Positions 6,487 through 20,050 of a stretch of DNA of 64,000 nt are shown here, in pieces (the first letter of the stretch is position 1; every line of letters starts with the position of its first letter). The DNA lies in contig NZ_VNHW01000004.1 of the NCBI RefSeq assembly GCF_008124835.1, positions 248,001-312,000 on the forward strand, written 5' to 3'. A model generated the notes under the pieces. The model had not been told where the DNA came from and ran no database searches. It worked only from the letters and a program-made list of their open reading frames with translations. Source of the stretch: Blastococcus xanthinilyticus (GTDB taxonomy: Bacteria; Actinomycetota; Actinomycetes; Mycobacteriales; Geodermatophilaceae). A program made the position numbers and the translations under genes.

Positions 6487-7404
6487 TCACCCGGTCAGGG
6501 CGAACCACACCGGCAGGGTGAGCAGCGCGGCCGTCGTCGCCACGGAGGTGTGCGCGGCCACGAAGCTGCCGTTCCCGCCCATCCGGGCGGTGAGCACGTA
6601 GGACGCCGTGGCCGGCGGCACCGCCGCGAATGCCAGGACGACGGCCCGCTGGTCGCCCTCCACGCCGAGCAGCGCCGCCAGCCCGAGGCCCACGGCCGGC
6701 ACCGCGACCAGCTTGACCACCGTCAGGTAGCCCGAGGCCAGCCACTCCCGCGGCGCCAGCTCCGCCAGCCGCAGCGCGGCACCGACGGTGAGCAGCCCCA
6801 TCGGCACCGCCGCGCCGGCGATCCGGCCGAGCGTCGTGTCGACCGGCGCCGGCAGCGTGAGGCCGACGAGGTTGCCGGCCAGGCCGGCGACCGTCGCGAT
6901 GATCAGCGGGTTGCGGACGACGGCGGCCAGCACGCCGGCGCCCGGTCGCGCCCCGGGCGACCCGGCGGTGCTCCGTGCCAGCGCCGTCACCGCCAGGACG
7001 TTCACCAGCGGCACGGAGACGCCCAGCAGGACGCCCATGAGCGCGAGCGCGGCCAGCCCTCGGTCGTCGACGAGGGCGAGGGCCAGGAAGGTGTTGAACC
7101 GGAACGCCGTCTGCCAGCCCGACGCCGCCGTCAGCCGGTCGATCCCGGGCAGCCAGCGCACGACCGCGCCGAGCAGCGCGCCCGCCACCAGCGCCCCCGC
7201 CGCAGCCACCAGGGCCGGCCCGGTGCCCGCCGCGCCCAGGTCGGCAGCCAGGGTCGTGCGCACGAGCAGGACCGGGAAGAGGACGTAGTAGACCAGCCGC
7301 TCGAGCTCGGTCCAGAACGCGGGCGAGCGCCAGGCCCAGCGGCGCAGCACCGTGCCGAGGACGATCAGCGCGAACTCCGGCAGCACGACCGCGGCTGCCT
7401 CCAC
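6487..7404 (-). CDS. AEC-family (auxin efflux carrier-like) transporter
   Basis: The 305-residue protein is almost entirely hydrophobic, with about ten membrane helices in two halves of five. The central VPLVNVLAVTAL and RNPLIIATVAGLAGN stretches are typical of the AEC family (PF03547). AEC members export or import small organic anions such as malate or auxin-like acids; the substrate here cannot be read from sequence. A GTG start is used. It lies 69 bp downstream of the ESX-associated operon on the same strand and may be cotranscribed. Confidence 0.85.
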   Translation of the reverse strand: MEAAAVVLPEFALIVLGTVLRRWAWRSPAFWTELERLVYYVLFPVLLVRTTLAADLGAAGTGPALVAAAGALVAGALLGAVVRWLPGIDRLTAASGWQTAFRFNTFLALALVDDRGLAALALMGVLLGVSVPLVNVLAVTALARSTAGSPGARPGAGVLAAVVRNPLIIATVAGLAGNLVGLTLPAPVDTTLGRIAGAAVPMGLLTVGAALRLAELAPREWLASGYLTVVKLVAVPAVGLGLAALLGVEGDQRAVVLAFAAVPPATASYVLTARMGGNGSFVAAHTSVATTAALLTLPVWFALTG

Positions 7405-7473
7405 GACCGCAGACTAGCCATGGCCGAGCACGCCTCCGGCCAACGCTCGGGGCGGGCGCGTCCGCCGGCGCGC

Positions 7474-7926
7474 TCAGTCGGCGCGGGGACCCAGCTCGTC
7501 CTCGACCGCGTCGCGCTCCACCTCGTCCAGCAGGTTCACCGTCCGCGAGATCCCGCTCGGCGGATCCGCCGGGTCGATCACGCTGACCGCGATGACGTCG
7601 AGCGGCGCCAGGTCGCTGTCCCACACCAGTCGGAGCGCCTCGTCGTAGGTGGCTTCGGCGTCGGCGTCCGGCTCCACCGTCACGTCGACGGCCGCCGTCG
7701 CGGACACCGTCAGGTCGTCCCGGTAGCGCACCTCCGCTGCCGTGACGCCGTCCCGTGCGGTCAGCTCGCGCTCGATGTCCGCCCGGGTGCCGGCGGTGCG
7801 CTCCTCCGGGCTGCCGGCCGGCCCCTCACCGCTCAGCCAGCCGCAGCCGGCCAGCGCCAGGACCGCGGGCAGCAGCAGCGCCGCAGCCGGCCGCCGGCGG
7901 CGTGGGAGGGAGCTCACTCGGGTCAT
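7474..7926 (-). CDS. Small lipoprotein of ESX-associated operon
   Basis: ATG at 7926 overlaps the stop of the upstream hydrolase gene (ATGA). The 150-residue product starts with an Arg-rich segment and a hydrophobic stretch ending in LALAGC, a lipobox with Cys28. The mature part is a small acidic alpha/beta domain without a recognised family. It is probably anchored on the outer face of the membrane. Its place as last gene after WXG-like, EspG-like and hydrolase genes suggests a role alongside that set. Confidence 0.7.
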   Translation of the reverse strand: MTRVSSLPRRRRPAAALLLPAVLALAGCGWLSGEGPAGSPEERTAGTRADIERELTARDGVTAAEVRYRDDLTVSATAAVDVTVEPDADAEATYDEALRLVWDSDLAPLDVIAVSVIDPADPPSGISRTVNLLDEVERDAVEDELGPRAD

Positions 7927-9320
7927 CTCCTGCCGATCGCGTAGACGTGGGTGACCACCGTGGCCGGCTCGCCGGGGGCGACGAGGAACGGCGCGGCGCC
8001 GGCCCGGAACGCGGCGATCGACGGGTCGTCGCTGCGGTCGACGGCCCGGGCACCGGCCTCGTACGCGGTGGCCACGCCGTGGTTGGCGCCGATGCTGCCC
8101 TGCTGGGCATCGAAAGTCACCGTCGTGACGTTCGGGTCGTCGTCGTTCTCGCGGGCGTCGAGGTGCGGCACCAGGTCGTGCACGTTCTCCAGGGCCAGCA
8201 CCTGCACCGGCGCGGGAACGCCGGCACGGGCGATCGGTGAGCCGGCGGTGACGACGCTGCGGACGTCGAAGTCGAAGTCGGGGGTGCCGGCGTCGGCGGC
8301 GGCCTGGGCGGCGACCATGCCGCCCTGGCTGTGGCCGACCAGCATCACCGGGTCCGTCGACCCCGCCCCGGCCCGCCGCAGGGCCTCCGCGACCGCCGCC
8401 TGACGGGTCGTCGCATCGCCACCGAGCACCCGCACGTTCGTGCCGAGATCGTGGGTCTGCGGATTCACCGTCGCACTCGGCGGGTTCCAGTCGGCGGTGC
8501 CGGGGATGTCGACGACGTAGGCGCGGGTGCCGTCGGCGTGGCTGATCACCCGCACGTCGATCTGGTCCGTCCGGGAGTTCGACGCGGCCGCCCGGCGAGC
8601 CAGCGCCGCCACCAGGTCGGCGACGTCCCGTGGCGGGGCGGTCGCCGCGGCGCCGGCGTCGTCGGGGAGGTCGGTGACGACCGGGGTGCCGTCGGGCCAC
8701 AGCTGCCCGAGCCGGCCGGCGGCGGCCCGCACGTCCCCACCGCCGAACCACGGCGCGGCAGCCGGCGCCAGCACCCCGACCAGGCCGGCGGCGCCGGGGA
8801 GCGCACCGGCCACGTCGTCGACGAGGCCCGGGTGCTCGGTCAGCCACAGCTCGGGGTCGTGCAGCAGGACGGCGGCGTCGGCTCCCGTGCCGGCGGGGTC
8901 CACCAGCCCCCGCGCGAGGACGCCGGCCAGCAGCACGCCGCCGGTCACCGGGAGGAGGAAGCCGCTCGCCCAGCGCAGGTCGTCGGCGAGCTCGGCCAGC
9001 GACGCATCGGCGGCGGCATAGGTCTCCGCCGCCGCCTCCAGTGCCAGCGCGCGCCCGGCGAAGGTGGCGGCGAGCGCGGTCAGCCCGCCAGGGCCGTCGA
9101 GGGCGTCGAGCAGCGCGGCCTCGAACCGGGCCACCCCCGCCGGGTCGAGCAGCGCGGAGGCGAGCAGATCCGGGTCGACCAGCACCGGGTGGCAGGCCGC
9201 GCTGGCGCGGGCCAGCAGCTCGGCCAGCCCGCTGCTGCTCCGGGCGAGCGTCGCCAGGTCCTCGAGGTCGGCCTCCAGCCCGCCGGCGCCGCCCCGGACG
9301 GTGATCTCAGGCGAGGTCAT
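7923..9320 (-). CDS. Alpha/beta hydrolase with WXG-like N-terminal region
   Basis: The 465-residue protein begins with about 130 residues of Ala/Leu-rich helices (LEADLEDLATLARSSSGLAE) like a WXG/PE-type export-helper domain. One or two hydrophobic segments follow, then a hydrolase domain. GHSQGG near residue 335 is the nucleophile elbow, and a late Asp and His (VHDLVPHLD, GANHGVA) complete a possible triad. Large helix-plus-lipase proteins of this sort accompany ESX loci. It starts 14 bases before the end of the EspG-like gene and overlaps the lipoprotein gene by four bases. The substrate is unknown. Confidence 0.75.
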   Translation of the reverse strand: MTSPEITVRGGAGGLEADLEDLATLARSSSGLAELLARASAACHPVLVDPDLLASALLDPAGVARFEAALLDALDGPGGLTALAATFAGRALALEAAAETYAAADASLAELADDLRWASGFLLPVTGGVLLAGVLARGLVDPAGTGADAAVLLHDPELWLTEHPGLVDDVAGALPGAAGLVGVLAPAAAPWFGGGDVRAAAGRLGQLWPDGTPVVTDLPDDAGAAATAPPRDVADLVAALARRAAASNSRTDQIDVRVISHADGTRAYVVDIPGTADWNPPSATVNPQTHDLGTNVRVLGGDATTRQAAVAEALRRAGAGSTDPVMLVGHSQGGMVAAQAAADAGTPDFDFDVRSVVTAGSPIARAGVPAPVQVLALENVHDLVPHLDARENDDDPNVTTVTFDAQQGSIGANHGVATAYEAGARAVDRSDDPSIAAFRAGAAPFLVAPGEPATVVTHVYAIGRR

Positions 9321-15188: not shown

Positions 15189-17996
15189 TCAGCGGCGGCG
15201 CCAGCGGGACCGTCCCCTCCCCAGCGCGGCGTCGCGCGCGGCGGTGAGCTCGGCGAGCTGCTCCGGCGGTGCGCCGGCCTCCTGGTAGGCCTCCAGCGCG
15301 ACGCCGTACCGCTGCTCGTCCGGGTCGTGATGGACCGCGAGCGCCCACAGCGCCTCGGCTCTCATCTCCGGCACGTCCTCGCGCCGGCCCACCTCCAGGG
15401 CCCGCCCGGCAGCCGCGAGTGCCTCGTCACGCCGCCCCAGGGCGGCGTACGCATCGGCACGCCCGAGGTCGACACCGGCCGCGGCCACGTCCTCCTGCAC
15501 GGCGCGGAACCCGGCCTCCGCGGCGTCGAACAGCTCCAGGGCGCGATCGCCCATCCCTGCCCGCACCAGCCGATCGGCGTGCTCGCGGCGCAACTCGGCG
15601 GCGAGCAGTGGGTCCTCGCCGTCGTCGACGTGGGCCAGGCAGGAGACACCCGCGGCCACCGCCTCGGGGATCTTACCCATGCTCTCGTGCAGCTGGGCGA
15701 GCATCCGGTAGGCCTTGGCCCGGCCGGATCCGTGCTCGGGGCCCAGGGCGCGCACCGCCCGCTCGGCCAGCGGCAGGGCGTCGTCGAGGAAGCCGAAGTC
15801 ACCGTTGAGCCGCGCGAGGTCGAGTGCCACGGCGCCCTCCAGCTCCCGGTCGCCGTCCTCGCCGGATTGCTGCAACAGCTCCTCGAGCAGGTCGGCGGCG
15901 TTCTGGTCCCGGTCCAGGTCCCGGAACAGCCTGGCCGCGGTGACCCGGGCCCAGGCGGCGTCCCCGGACCGGCCCCCCGTGAGAAACAGGTCCACCGCGG
16001 CGAACGCGGCAGCGAGAGCCTCCTCGGCGCGGTCGTCGTCAGCGAGCATCTCGGCCCTGGCCAGCGCGGCGCGGCCGGCCTCCCCCGGATCGCCCAGCGC
16101 CTCCTCCGCCCGCTGGGCCACGGAGACCACGTCGATCGCCCGCTCCAGTTCCCCTCCAGCGACCAGTAGGGGCGCCAGCACCTCCGCCGCCGACCGCAGG
16201 CCGGCGTCGCTGCCGGACCGGTCGGCCAGCTGCCATGCCGCCTCCGCCGCGGCCCGGGCGCCGGTCAGGTCGCCGGCCACCCCGCGGACCCAGGCCTCGG
16301 TCTCCCAGGCGTCCTGGACGTCCTCCGGATCGGCGGCCAGGAGCTGCCGGGCCTCGGCGAACCGGTCGTCGACGGCGCCCGCCGGCACCTCGGCGTCCGC
16401 TTCGGCGAACGCGAGCACCGCCCATTCGGCCTCGATCAGGAGAACCTGACCACGTGCCCGGTCACCGGCCGGATCCACATCGGCGGCAGCACGGGCAACC
16501 GCGAGGAGTCGCTGCGCCTCCTCACCTCCCGGCGCACCGGTGCGCGCCACCTCCAGGCGGGCTCGCGAGAGGGCGGCGAGGAGGAGGTCGTGCGGGTCCT
16601 CGGCCAGCTCGGAGAGCTCGGCGAGGGCGCGGTCGAACTCGACCGCGGCCTCCTCCAGCCGTTCCAGCCGGAGCAGACCCTCGGCCACCGTCCGCCGGGC
16701 CCGGGCCGCACCGCGCCGGTCGCCCATCCCCTCGAAGGCGCGCAGCGCGCGCACGGCGAGGTCGTGCCGATCGTCCAGCGTGCCGCGCGGTTCACGTGCC
16801 TGCGCCAGGAGGGCAGCCGCGTCGTCGGTTTGAACCGGGGATCCCACCTGAGGTGCACCGGTCCGGGAGGCCACGGCAGGCGGCGCGACCGGCTCCACGG
16901 GCCCTGTCGCGTCCGCGACCGGGGCGACCGCCGTGGTCGGCCGGGTCGCCAGCATCCGCTCGACCGCGCGCCCGATGCGGTCGGTCCCGTTGCGCCGGTC
17001 GAAGGCGGCGGCCACCTCGCGCGCCTGCCCGGCGAACCCGGCCGCCAGCTCGCCGGCGTCACCGGTCCGGTCCCCCAGCCGGCGCGGGAGCGGGCCGAGG
17101 TCCGCCTCGTGCCACGCGGCGAGGACGGCGGCGGTCGCGGCGGCCGTGACCATCCGCGCCTCGACGTCGAACAGGCCGCGGTCGCAGACGTCGACCAGCT
17201 CACCCGCCAGCTCGAGGGCCTGACCCGGACGCCCGGTGCGGCACAGGTGCAGCACGTGCTGGGCCTGCGTCGACACCAGCGACGGGTTGCCGCGAGCGAG
17301 CCGCAGCCCCCACGTGTGCAGGCGTTCGGCCTCGTCGTCCCGGCCGGTCTCCCGCAGGGCGGCCAGCAGCTTGGCCAGCGCTCGCGCCGGCTCCTCCCCG
17401 CACTCCAGCCGGCCGGCCACGAGCGGTCGGGCCAGGTCCAGTGCGCGTTCCGGCTCACCGGCGTCGAGCGCCAGGCTGATCTCGTTCGACACGTCGCAGG
17501 CCCGGCAGTCGCTGTACTCGCTGCGCGGCAGGACCCGCCAGGCGCGGTACGCCTCGACCGCCTCGGCCGTGCGTCCCGTGTTCAGCGGGAGCACCCAGCG
17601 GAGCTTGGCGATGGCATCGGAACCCTCACCGATCTCCGTGTACCGGCGCTCGGCCTCGGCGACGACCCGGTCGATCTCCTCCAGCGGGACGTCCGGCATG
17701 TCGACGAGCGTCGTCGGCAGCCACTTCAGCGCCCAGTAGGTGGCGTGCCGGTCGAACCGCCCGGGGTGGGCGTCCAGCTGGGCCAGGCACCAGGTCACGG
17801 CCACCAGCGACTTCTGCGGCTCGCCACCGTGCATGGCCGCCGACGCGAGCGCCTCCCGGGCGGTGAAGGCGCCGTCGAGGTCGTTCGCCGCGTCCGCCGT
17901 GCGCACCGCTTCCTCGGCGACCGCGGTCCTGGCGAATCCGGGGGGCATGCCCTCGGCCTCGGCCAGCAGCTTCCGGACCGACCTACCGCGTGCCAT
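15189..17996 (-). CDS. Large TPR protein paired with HSP90-like ATPase
   Basis: The ATG at 17996 lies inside the last codons of the HSP90-like gene, a 14-base overlap. The 935-residue protein is built of degenerate helical repeats rich in Ala, Leu, Asp and Arg throughout (for example GDLTGARAAAEAAWQLADRS and AVALDLARLNGDFGFLDDAL). No enzymatic domain or membrane segment is visible apart from a Pro/Val linker near 390-410. TPR proteins are classical HSP90 cochaperones, and the tight overlap suggests the two act as one complex. The open frame extends 98 codons further upstream but that part is the antisense of the ATPase gene. Confidence 0.8.
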   Translation of the reverse strand: MARGRSVRKLLAEAEGMPPGFARTAVAEEAVRTADAANDLDGAFTAREALASAAMHGGEPQKSLVAVTWCLAQLDAHPGRFDRHATYWALKWLPTTLVDMPDVPLEEIDRVVAEAERRYTEIGEGSDAIAKLRWVLPLNTGRTAEAVEAYRAWRVLPRSEYSDCRACDVSNEISLALDAGEPERALDLARPLVAGRLECGEEPARALAKLLAALRETGRDDEAERLHTWGLRLARGNPSLVSTQAQHVLHLCRTGRPGQALELAGELVDVCDRGLFDVEARMVTAAATAAVLAAWHEADLGPLPRRLGDRTGDAGELAAGFAGQAREVAAAFDRRNGTDRIGRAVERMLATRPTTAVAPVADATGPVEPVAPPAVASRTGAPQVGSPVQTDDAAALLAQAREPRGTLDDRHDLAVRALRAFEGMGDRRGAARARRTVAEGLLRLERLEEAAVEFDRALAELSELAEDPHDLLLAALSRARLEVARTGAPGGEEAQRLLAVARAAADVDPAGDRARGQVLLIEAEWAVLAFAEADAEVPAGAVDDRFAEARQLLAADPEDVQDAWETEAWVRGVAGDLTGARAAAEAAWQLADRSGSDAGLRSAAEVLAPLLVAGGELERAIDVVSVAQRAEEALGDPGEAGRAALARAEMLADDDRAEEALAAAFAAVDLFLTGGRSGDAAWARVTAARLFRDLDRDQNAADLLEELLQQSGEDGDRELEGAVALDLARLNGDFGFLDDALPLAERAVRALGPEHGSGRAKAYRMLAQLHESMGKIPEAVAAGVSCLAHVDDGEDPLLAAELRREHADRLVRAGMGDRALELFDAAEAGFRAVQEDVAAAGVDLGRADAYAALGRRDEALAAAGRALEVGRREDVPEMRAEALWALAVHHDPDEQRYGVALEAYQEAGAPPEQLAELTAARDAALGRGRSRWRRR

Positions 17997-19770
17997 CGAG
18001 ACTCCCTTCGATGAGGCGCCCCAGCGCCCCGGACAACAACGTGGTCTCGCGGCCGCGCAGCGGGTGGCGGCCGAGCAGCAGCGCCTGCAGGTACAGCACC
18101 TCGACGGCGGTGCGCAGGGCGTGCTCGCCCACCGGGCCCGCCAGCTGGCGCACCACGGGGTGCCGCCAGTTGAGCACCAGAGTGGCCTCGCGCGGTGCCT
18201 CGGTGGCGGCCTGGATGCGGCCGAGCATGGGCGCCCAGAACGAGTCGGCCACCTGCGCGGTCTCGTCCAGCTCCCGGGCGAAGCGGGCACCGTCGCCGGC
18301 GGTGTAGAGGCACGGCAGCGACGCCGGACTGAACTCCCGCACCTCGACGTCGCAGGAGAACGGGGCCAGCACCGGCCGGCACCGGCCCACGAGCGCTGCG
18401 GCGGCGGCGAGCCCTGCGGTGTCCTCGACCGGCCGCAGCACGGCCGCCAGGTCCTCCGGCTCCACCCGCTCGACGTCGACCGCGGGCAGGACCTCGGGAA
18501 GCCGCTGCAGGAGCTCCTCGTCGTAGGTGAAGCCGGCGTTCACCAGGCAGATCGACTCGGCGGTGGCCACCTGCACCATCTGGCCGAAGTCCTCGGTGGT
18601 GGCGGCGTAGCGCACCGGGCCCCGCCGGGTGACCTCGGTGAGCGTCATGCGCCCCAGGCTGGTGTCCACCGGCAGCCACGGCGCGAAGAGCTTCAGCAGT
18701 TCGTCGTCGTGCACCGCCAGCGCCTTCAGGGCGAGGGCGTGCACCCGTACCAGCGCCTGCAGGCGCTCGGGTTCCCGCTGGGCCAGGTCGGTCAGCCAGG
18801 AGCGCAGCGCGGCGCCGAGGCCGTCCCGGACGGCGGCGAGTGTCGCGTCCTCGTACAGGCCCTCGCGGGAGGCCAGCGGTTGCAGGGCGCTGGTGTCCAC
18901 GACGGCGCGCACGAAGAAGGCCCAGTCGGGCAGCAGCCCGTCGACGGCGTCGGACAGCAGCATGCGCTTGAGGTGCACCCGGTTGCGCTGCCGCGACGAC
19001 GGGCTCGGGCTCTGCGGCAGCACGAAGGCGACCCCGGTCAGGCCGGCCGCCGGGAGGTCGAGCGGAACGGCGTCGAGGAACCGCTCGCCCAGCTCCCGCT
19101 CACCCCAGGCGAGCAGCTGCTCGGTGTCGCGGCCCACCCACGGCAGCGGCCCGCCGGTCAGGCGCTCGTCACCGGTGGCGGTGCGCAGCACGATCGGCTG
19201 CTCCAGCAGACCTGCGTAGCGCAGGATCAGCGCCCGCACGGTCGCCGGGCGCAGCCGGTCCTCCAGCCCCGGCCTGGCGGTCAGCCACACGGTCGTCCCC
19301 GGCCGGGCCCGCCCCTCGCCGTCGGGCAGCTCGCGCAGCTCGTAGGTGCCGTCGCTGCGGCCCCGCCAGGAGACTCCCGGACCACCCCGGGCCGACCGGG
19401 TGACCACCCGGATCTCGTCGCTGACCAGGAAGCAGGACAGCAGGCCGATCCCGAACCGCCCCAGGTAGTCCTGCCCTGGCCGGAGCAGGGTGTCGCGCTT
19501 GGAGGAGGAGCCGATGGTCGCCAGCAGCTCGTGCACCTCGGCGACGGTCAGCCCGACGCCCTCGTCCTCGACCGACAGCACGGGCGCGGATCCTGGCCGG
19601 TCGTGGCACTCGACCAGGACGGGGACGCCGGCCGCCGCGGCGCCCCGCGCGGTGGACGCGTCGACGGCGTTCTGCAGCAGCTCCCGGACGTAGACGTCGG
19701 GTGAGCTGTAGAGGTGGGCGGACAGCAGGTCGACGACACCGCGCAGGTCGACCTGGAAGGAGTGGCGCAC
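17983..19770 (-). CDS. HSP90 family (HtpG-like) ATPase
   Basis: GTG at 19770 gives 595 residues, somewhat shorter than HtpG. The N-terminal Bergerat ATP site is complete: RELLQNAVDAS supplies the Asn, VEDEGVGLT the DxGxG, and YLGRFGIGLLSCFLVSD the glycine loop. The middle domain has the HSP90-type RNRVHLKRMLLSDAVDGLLP and DTSALQPLASREGLYED stretches, the latter close to the SREMLQ motif. The C-terminal dimer domain is divergent. Substrates of this actinobacterial paralogue are not known. It is followed by, and overlaps, a TPR gene. Confidence 0.85.
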   Translation of the reverse strand: MRHSFQVDLRGVVDLLSAHLYSSPDVYVRELLQNAVDASTARGAAAAGVPVLVECHDRPGSAPVLSVEDEGVGLTVAEVHELLATIGSSSKRDTLLRPGQDYLGRFGIGLLSCFLVSDEIRVVTRSARGGPGVSWRGRSDGTYELRELPDGEGRARPGTTVWLTARPGLEDRLRPATVRALILRYAGLLEQPIVLRTATGDERLTGGPLPWVGRDTEQLLAWGERELGERFLDAVPLDLPAAGLTGVAFVLPQSPSPSSRQRNRVHLKRMLLSDAVDGLLPDWAFFVRAVVDTSALQPLASREGLYEDATLAAVRDGLGAALRSWLTDLAQREPERLQALVRVHALALKALAVHDDELLKLFAPWLPVDTSLGRMTLTEVTRRGPVRYAATTEDFGQMVQVATAESICLVNAGFTYDEELLQRLPEVLPAVDVERVEPEDLAAVLRPVEDTAGLAAAAALVGRCRPVLAPFSCDVEVREFSPASLPCLYTAGDGARFARELDETAQVADSFWAPMLGRIQAATEAPREATLVLNWRHPVVRQLAGPVGEHALRTAVEVLYLQALLLGRHPLRGRETTLLSGALGRLIEGSLDGTR

Positions 19771-19912: not shown

Positions 19913-20050
19913 ATGACCGAGACGCCGCAGCCCCGCGACATCGCCCTGGAGCAGGAGTCCGCCGAGGTGGCGGCCGACCTGGAGGCCCAGAGCGACACCC
20001 CCGAGGCCCCGCAGGGCGACGAGGGCGACGTCGAGGGCCACCCCTCCTAG
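19913..20050 (+). CDS. 45-residue acidic protein
   Basis: ATG at 19913 opens a 45-residue frame in which nearly every codon ends in G or C, like the real genes around it. The product is very acidic and Ala/Glu-rich (QPRDIALEQESAEVAADLEA), ending GHPS, with no domain recognised and probably disordered. It fills most of the gap between the divergent HSP90-like gene and the convergent channel gene. Confidence 0.45.
   Translation: MTETPQPRDIALEQESAEVAADLEAQSDTPEAPQGDEGDVEGHPS

Follow-up and report, generated by a model that had tools for sequence, protein, structure and literature searches.

A bacterial Hsp90 gene paired with a helical-repeat protein gene: a candidate two-gene chaperone machine in Blastococcus xanthinilyticus

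Familiar examples of eukaryotic tetratricopeptide repeat (TPR) cochaperones are Hop/Sti1, FKBP51 and CHIP. Eukaryotic TPR cochaperones recognize the MEEVD tail of Hsp90 (PMC13107436). For bacterial Hsp90, two papers state that no cochaperones taking part in remodeling have been identified (PMC7926864, 2021) and that the protein functions in the absence of cochaperones (PMC6986101). Three groups of HTPG proteins were distinguished by Chen et al. 2006 (PMC1525184), who assigned the actinobacterial copies to Groups A and C and reported that S. coelicolor and B. fragilis each have a second HTPG copy (615 and 588 amino acids, respectively). Here we describe a 64,000-nucleotide stretch of the Blastococcus xanthinilyticus genome (hereafter the window), in which an Hsp90-family gene is overlapped by a gene for a helical-repeat protein, referred to below as the partner. 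We consider it reasonably probable that the two genes encode a bacterial Hsp90 machine, with the partner serving this Hsp90 specifically as a cochaperone or client adaptor.

Chen et al. (PMC1525184) do not mention the partner in the accessible sections, from which the words TPR and operon are absent. No account of the gene pair was found in the open-licence literature, with subscription journals mostly outside the search, nor in the available parts of PMC3710099 and PMC11687934. Two further leads were discarded, since in the text portions concerned the match to PA1068 was a strain name and that to lmo0942 belonged to a list of fragments.

An Hsp90 of a distinct branch and its overlapping neighbor

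The Hsp90-family gene (17983..19770, minus strand) encodes 595 amino acids, starts with a GTG at 19770 and stops with a TAG at 17983-17985. The partner gene (15189..17996, minus strand) encodes 935 amino acids between an ATG start and a TGA stop. An earlier note, made from the letters of this DNA, had placed the start of a TPR gene within an ATPase gene. Both genes are real and their coordinates as given there are exact; the partner ATG at 17996 lies inside the Hsp90 frame, and the two frames share 14 bases (17983..17996, minus strand). The heptamer AAGGGAG (18002..18008, minus strand), which resembles a ribosome-binding site and could act as one, lies within the Hsp90 frame on the 5' side of the partner ATG. 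No obvious ribosome site precedes the GTG start of the Hsp90 gene.

Three approximately bounded domains make up the Hsp90 protein. The N-terminal ATP-binding domain (residues ~1-200; 19171..19770, minus strand) is recognized by HATPase_c_3 and its catalytic residues, the middle domain (residues ~201-425; 18496..19170, minus strand) by PF00183 and the arginine R302 of the SRE motif, and the C-terminal domain (residues ~426-595; 17986..18495, minus strand), which has no EEVD tail, by a fold match reaching residues 588-594 of the predicted model. The GHKL-type ATP-site residues E30, N34, D37, D69, G71, G73, G104, F106, G107, G109 and T159 are kept in 67/68 sequences, the remaining sequence being a truncated match with gaps at these positions, and R302 is kept in all 68. 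In an alignment to TRAP1, both the ATP-site residues and the SRE arginine fall on matching positions. The claim that the ATP site is intact thus holds at the level of residues. The C-terminus had likewise been called divergent, which is correct for its sequence (78.1% identity to the Blastococcus relative L133, against 88.5% for the N-terminal domain) and incorrect for its predicted fold.

The fold prediction rests on a model with a mean predicted local distance difference test score (pLDDT) of 86.6 and a predicted template modeling score (pTM) of 0.79, with low values at residues 86-104 around the ATP lid. Residues 4-588 of the model match the HtpG structure 9a6t_B, itself an integrative model, with Z 30.9 and a root-mean-square deviation (rmsd) of 6.6 over 536 aligned residues, and the model matches TRAP1 (7exp_A) with Z 30.9 and rmsd 8.6 over 517. 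Across the full-length HtpG and TRAP1 structures matched, Z was 30-31 and rmsd 6.6-8.9. Moreover, a profile built from 26 relatives matches residues 7-611 of E. coli HtpG (2iop_A) with E 1.5e-62. The N-M-C fold, including its C-terminal domain, is therefore predicted to be retained.

Canonical HtpG and TRAP1 share this predicted three-domain fold, the ATP site and the SRE arginine with the window protein. However, the latter scores only 142.7 bits against the canonical HtpG model NF003555, whose cut-off is 371, whereas it reaches 693.8 bits against NF010683 (PRK14083, 'HSP90 family protein'), whose cut-off is 455. Searches with PF00183 and NF010683 detected no other Hsp90 in the source genome. 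Some Hsp90 match at E <=0.001 was obtained in 37 of 57 genomes of the same family, Geodermatophilaceae; none of the 57 yielded a canonical HtpG, and apart from four PRK14083 genes the matches are short, reach at most 33 bits and lie inside other long frames. The PRK14083/NF010683 family probably corresponds to Group C in the HTPG classification of Chen et al. We take the window Hsp90 to represent a branch separate from that of canonical HtpG, predicted to be complete and probably acting as an ATP-driven, dimeric chaperone.

Pairing and co-inheritance of the two genes

The earlier note had asked for a genomic survey of co-occurrence, which we carried out in 394 genomes of the class, the source genome included. 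The survey used the conserved N-terminal core of the partner, and since few candidates were scored per genome some copies may have been missed. It yielded 52 Hsp90 places, spread over 45 genomes, and 57 places with the partner core, spread over 48. At 51 of the 52 Hsp90 places the core adjoins on the same strand, with -2 to 113 bases between the matched stretches. Of the 394 genomes, 44 have both genes, 1 has only Hsp90, 4 have only the core and 345 have neither (Fisher p 1.8e-52, a value uncorrected for relatedness). The pairing far exceeds chance, and it is conserved both within the class and across several phyla.

In the one exception, G325, the next gene starts in an ATGA overlap with the Hsp90 gene and encodes a protein of 296 residues, in which Pfam detects TPR repeats but which escapes the core profile. 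Among 14 named loci, the three from Geodermatophilaceae are all paired and nine of the other 11 have an adjacent core; the paired genomes span Planctomycetota, Acidobacteriota, Deltaproteobacteria and Firmicutes. The arrangement varies somewhat, with the core upstream of Hsp90 in L037 and 267 bases between the genes in L036. Five loci with Hsp90 from a plasmid collection (L046-L049 and L053, with record H5 left out) all have an adjacent core. As a control, we inspected 18 canonical HtpG loci, all matching NF003555 at E 1e-100 or better, and in none of them does a core occur within the 666-873 bases downstream; in this respect too canonical HtpG differs from the window Hsp90. Among the 67 pairs with a downstream partner, 34 have a partner start that overlaps the Hsp90 stop and 59 have one within 25 bases of it, when the start codon closest to the profile start is used.

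Such an arrangement could also arise if the two genes belonged to different pathways and were merely co-transcribed, kept together by operon conservation. We regard this as very improbable, since the pairing recurs in several phyla without shared neighbors, and since both the divergent gammaproteobacterial Hsp90 branch described below and the outlying Hsp90 of G325 likewise directly precede helical-repeat genes.

The two genes have also been inherited together. For 68 pairs with both genes present, chosen after duplicates, partner-centered loci and orphans had been left out, tree distances of Hsp90 and partner correlate at 0.93, and none of 2000 permutations reached this value. Because this correlation partly reflects species history and linkage, we turned to seven genomes in which two diverged pairs coexist. 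There, both genes gave the same grouping in 21/21 comparisons, which are not independent of one another. Furthermore, 26 of 31 strongly supported splits in the Hsp90 tree recur in the partner tree, and there is one supported conflict.

The partner evolves faster than its Hsp90, above all in its C-terminal part. Relative to L133, the ratio of nonsynonymous to synonymous substitution (dN/dS) is ~0.20 for Hsp90, 0.39 for the core and 0.56 for the partner C-terminus. Amino acid identities follow the same order (86%, 68% and 52%, with 89-93% for three flanking genes), as they do against the relative L134 (80%, 66% and 50%, with 78% and 68% for two flanking genes). A dN/dS that rises from core to C-terminus is what would be expected of a docking core joined to a specificity region.

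The partner protein and its possible role

The predicted model of the partner (mean pLDDT 92.2, pTM 0.62) consists of a helical core and a TPR superhelix, joined by a disordered linker. The core (residues ~1-350; 16947..17996, minus strand) is delimited by the alignment, the model and homologues in several phyla. It contains a C164-x-x-C167 motif (17496..17507, minus strand) and C199 (17400..17402, minus strand), with each of the three cysteines present in 66/68 cores, and an FDxRNG motif at residues 332-337 (16986..17003, minus strand) evident from the alignment. Judging from conservation, these cysteines could be a site of metal binding or redox chemistry. The linker (residues 351-392; 16821..16946, minus strand) has pLDDT below 50 at residues 362-389. 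It is followed by the C-terminal superhelix (residues 393-935; 15192..16820, minus strand), assigned by PF13424 and by likeness to the TPR domain of LGN (4wnd_A; Z 24.4, rmsd 4.0, 316 aligned). The likeness to LGN is one of repeats and tells nothing of function.

Pfam TPR repeats are confined to the C-terminal part, and no Pfam family was found for the core. Solved structures gave the core only weak matches to repeat proteins; since TPR proteins fill the matches of the whole model, the fold search barely tested the core by itself. Scanning 36 partners, that of the window included, revealed TPR_12 in 21 and DUF4026 in two. The variable TPR part is missing from short partners of 326-380 residues in Planctomycetota (L036 and L044), Acidobacteriota (L045), Deltaproteobacteria (L035) and some Firmicutes (L048, Paenibacillus; L049, Listeria).

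We propose that the conserved N-terminal core docks on Hsp90, whereas the variable C-terminal module would bind clients or further factors and so confer specificity. The module would differ by lineage: the window partner has a TPR superhelix, some Firmicutes have DUF4026, and several phyla have no such module. Translation of the two proteins would be coupled through the overlapping start. Physical binding, cochaperone activity, translational coupling, the direction in which one protein acts on the other and the nature of the clients are what we infer from pairing, co-inheritance and modular architecture.

The strongest alternative is that the partner is itself a dedicated client, a long and fast-evolving solenoid that needs Hsp90 to fold or to stay active. 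Chaperone genes can stand together with those of their clients, and a large repeat protein with a variable C-terminus, strictly paired at 51/52 places, fits such a role. However, the part that is conserved is the N-terminal core, which stands alone in the partners of 326-380 residues, and 6/57 cores have no Hsp90 within ~7-9 kb. We therefore think it unlikely that the partner is simply a client.

Several observations also weigh against a cochaperone or adaptor role for the partner. The six cores lacking a nearby Hsp90 indicate that the core can probably work alone. One named locus (L043) has an Hsp90 followed, through an ATGA overlap, by an unrecognized protein of ~398 residues for which hhalign gave no homology to the core, and at another (L039) no partner gene was seen beside Hsp90. 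No fusion of Hsp90 and partner occurs among the 68 pairs, and co-inheritance of neighboring genes is in part explained by linkage alone. A search for sigma-70-like promoters in the locus stretch found none, a result that carries little weight because the window has a GC content of 74%. Finally, the last 30 residues of 75 Hsp90 proteins contain no EEVD and these 75 tails hold no single widely common motif. The comparison with eukaryotic TPR cochaperones drawn in the earlier note therefore holds by analogy only. The pairing it implied is conserved, and by hypothesis the partner resembles those proteins as a helical, TPR-containing protein that works with Hsp90, but they bind a MEEVD tail which is missing here, and in the partner it is the N-terminal core that is conserved, not the TPR part.

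With these points taken into account, we still favor a two-gene machine with the partner as cochaperone or adaptor. More tentatively, and with somewhat less confidence than doubt, we suggest that the pair represents a second, widespread bacterial Hsp90 system with a dedicated helical-repeat cochaperone, docked through its core without an EEVD tail and with a C-terminal module swapped between lineages, such that a partnership of Hsp90 with TPR proteins arose independently of eukaryotes. A strictly paired and co-inherited partner of one bacterial Hsp90 branch makes the statement that bacterial Hsp90 is free of cochaperones directly testable. Moreover, if the partner regulates Hsp90, it would represent a route to Hsp90 regulation that dispenses with the eukaryotic EEVD tail.

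Several loci show other arrangements of the partner core. It is fused to DUF4026 in L040 (9820-12141), which hints at a functional context for that domain; an orphan core with no nearby Hsp90 shares one frame with a YbjN domain in L109 (7882-9606); one frame in L114 (7853-11653) holds two core matches; and two tandem partner genes stand behind one Hsp90 in L041 (9773-13050). At L039, a macrodomain protein (6818-7945) is encoded directly upstream of Hsp90.

Distribution, divergent pairs and neighboring genes

Within Geodermatophilaceae the pair is patchy, occurring in 4/57 genomes and, with the source genome included, in 2/8 of the genus sample. In the source genome it is flanked by potassium (K)-channel and AMP-ligase genes. 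The same two genes lie ~240 bases apart in the congener L128 (2886-5785), with no trace of the pair between them. In L133 and L134 the pair occupies the same neighborhood, where the K-channel gene is either missing or placed on the opposite side of it. Either repeated loss of an ancient locus or exchange of the two genes as a module would fit this distribution.

More divergent pairs were found in Gammaproteobacteria. Pseudomonas aeruginosa, Xanthomonas, Salmonella and E. coli each have a more divergent Hsp90 directly followed by a protein of 764-774 amino acids, the products being annotated as 'ATP-binding protein' or 'hypothetical protein'. Two of these Hsp90 proteins, scanned against NF010683, scored 285.8 and 292.9 bits, below the cut-off of 455. 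The downstream proteins of P. aeruginosa and Xanthomonas have weak Pfam TPR matches. A query spanning the divergent pair matched 245 of 5426 complete E. coli genomes; since all 245 cover at least 80% of the query, both genes are present in each. At both E. coli loci examined (L152, 12001-16144; L153, 5468-9611) the pair lies between fdhD and yiiG, and in Salmonella it lies ~3 kb from fdhD, among ordinary genes. The E. coli pair would offer a tractable host.

When profiles of the two partner families are compared with hhalign, they match weakly around the CxxC motif (probability 68%, E 4.7e-5). Because the match is weak and confined to this region, and because one of the four proteins in the second profile, that of Nonomuraea, has no CxxC, the sequence comparison suggests, without establishing, a common origin of the two families. 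Taken singly, the partners of L043, G325, Pseudomonas and Xanthomonas show no homology to the core, or very weak homology. On a Pseudanabaena plasmid (L050, 5213-8565), an 877-residue Hsp90-like protein is encoded next to a divergent gene for a TIR-domain protein, and the second gene downstream is a TPR gene.

The patchy presence of the pair in Geodermatophilaceae and in E. coli, together with its absence from the same locus in L128, raises another explanation, namely that the pair works as a switch sensing stress or invaders. The Hsp90 ATPase would then hold or activate a ligand-sensing repeat protein, possibly by way of the CxxC...C cysteines, as an accessory or defense module and not in general folding. 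Conservation of C164, C167 and C199 is consistent with this, as is the TIR gene beside the Pseudanabaena Hsp90-like gene. In addition, a DefensePredictor figure legend (PMC13092281) lists the abbreviations HATPase and TPR among the predicted systems, which may or may not refer to the pair of Hsp90 and partner; the main text of that paper contains neither 'Hsp90' nor 'HtpG'.

However, several results speak against such a switch. No PADLOC 2.0.0 defense family matches either window protein over its length, and the same is true of their relatives. The window Hsp90 aligns only through ATPase-domain stretches, to TmtA models of 1302-1655 positions and to a restriction-enzyme model, and the window partner has no PADLOC match. 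One pattern scan of viral contigs revealed no relative. A collection labeled 'phages' yielded 14 records; both genes occur in one of these, the gut scaffold L151, which is unverified and could be DNA of a bacterium. Furthermore, the two E. coli loci and the Salmonella locus sit among ordinary genes.

A third gene or effector was sought as well. We clustered the neighbors, picked as frames by length, at 36 loci comprising 16 with Hsp90 from other phyla and plasmids and 20 further loci, six orphan partners among them. None of the resulting clusters was taken to belong to the system, and no third gene is shared by most of the loci. The largest cluster, from nine loci, groups frames read from the opposite strand, most of them lying across the pair itself. 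A cluster of four loci is linked by signaling-type sequences, two of which read as response regulators; the others comprise one of three loci and several of two. In view of these results we judge a sensing or defense switch to be rather improbable, and prefer to regard the pair as a chaperone with its cochaperone or adaptor.

One further feature was noted next to the pair. Between the Hsp90 and K-channel genes, the window contains a frame of 45 residues on the plus strand (19913-20050), beginning MTETPQPRDIALEQES. A similar small frame adjoins the K-channel gene of the congener L130 (14484-14666), and it may therefore be a real small gene.

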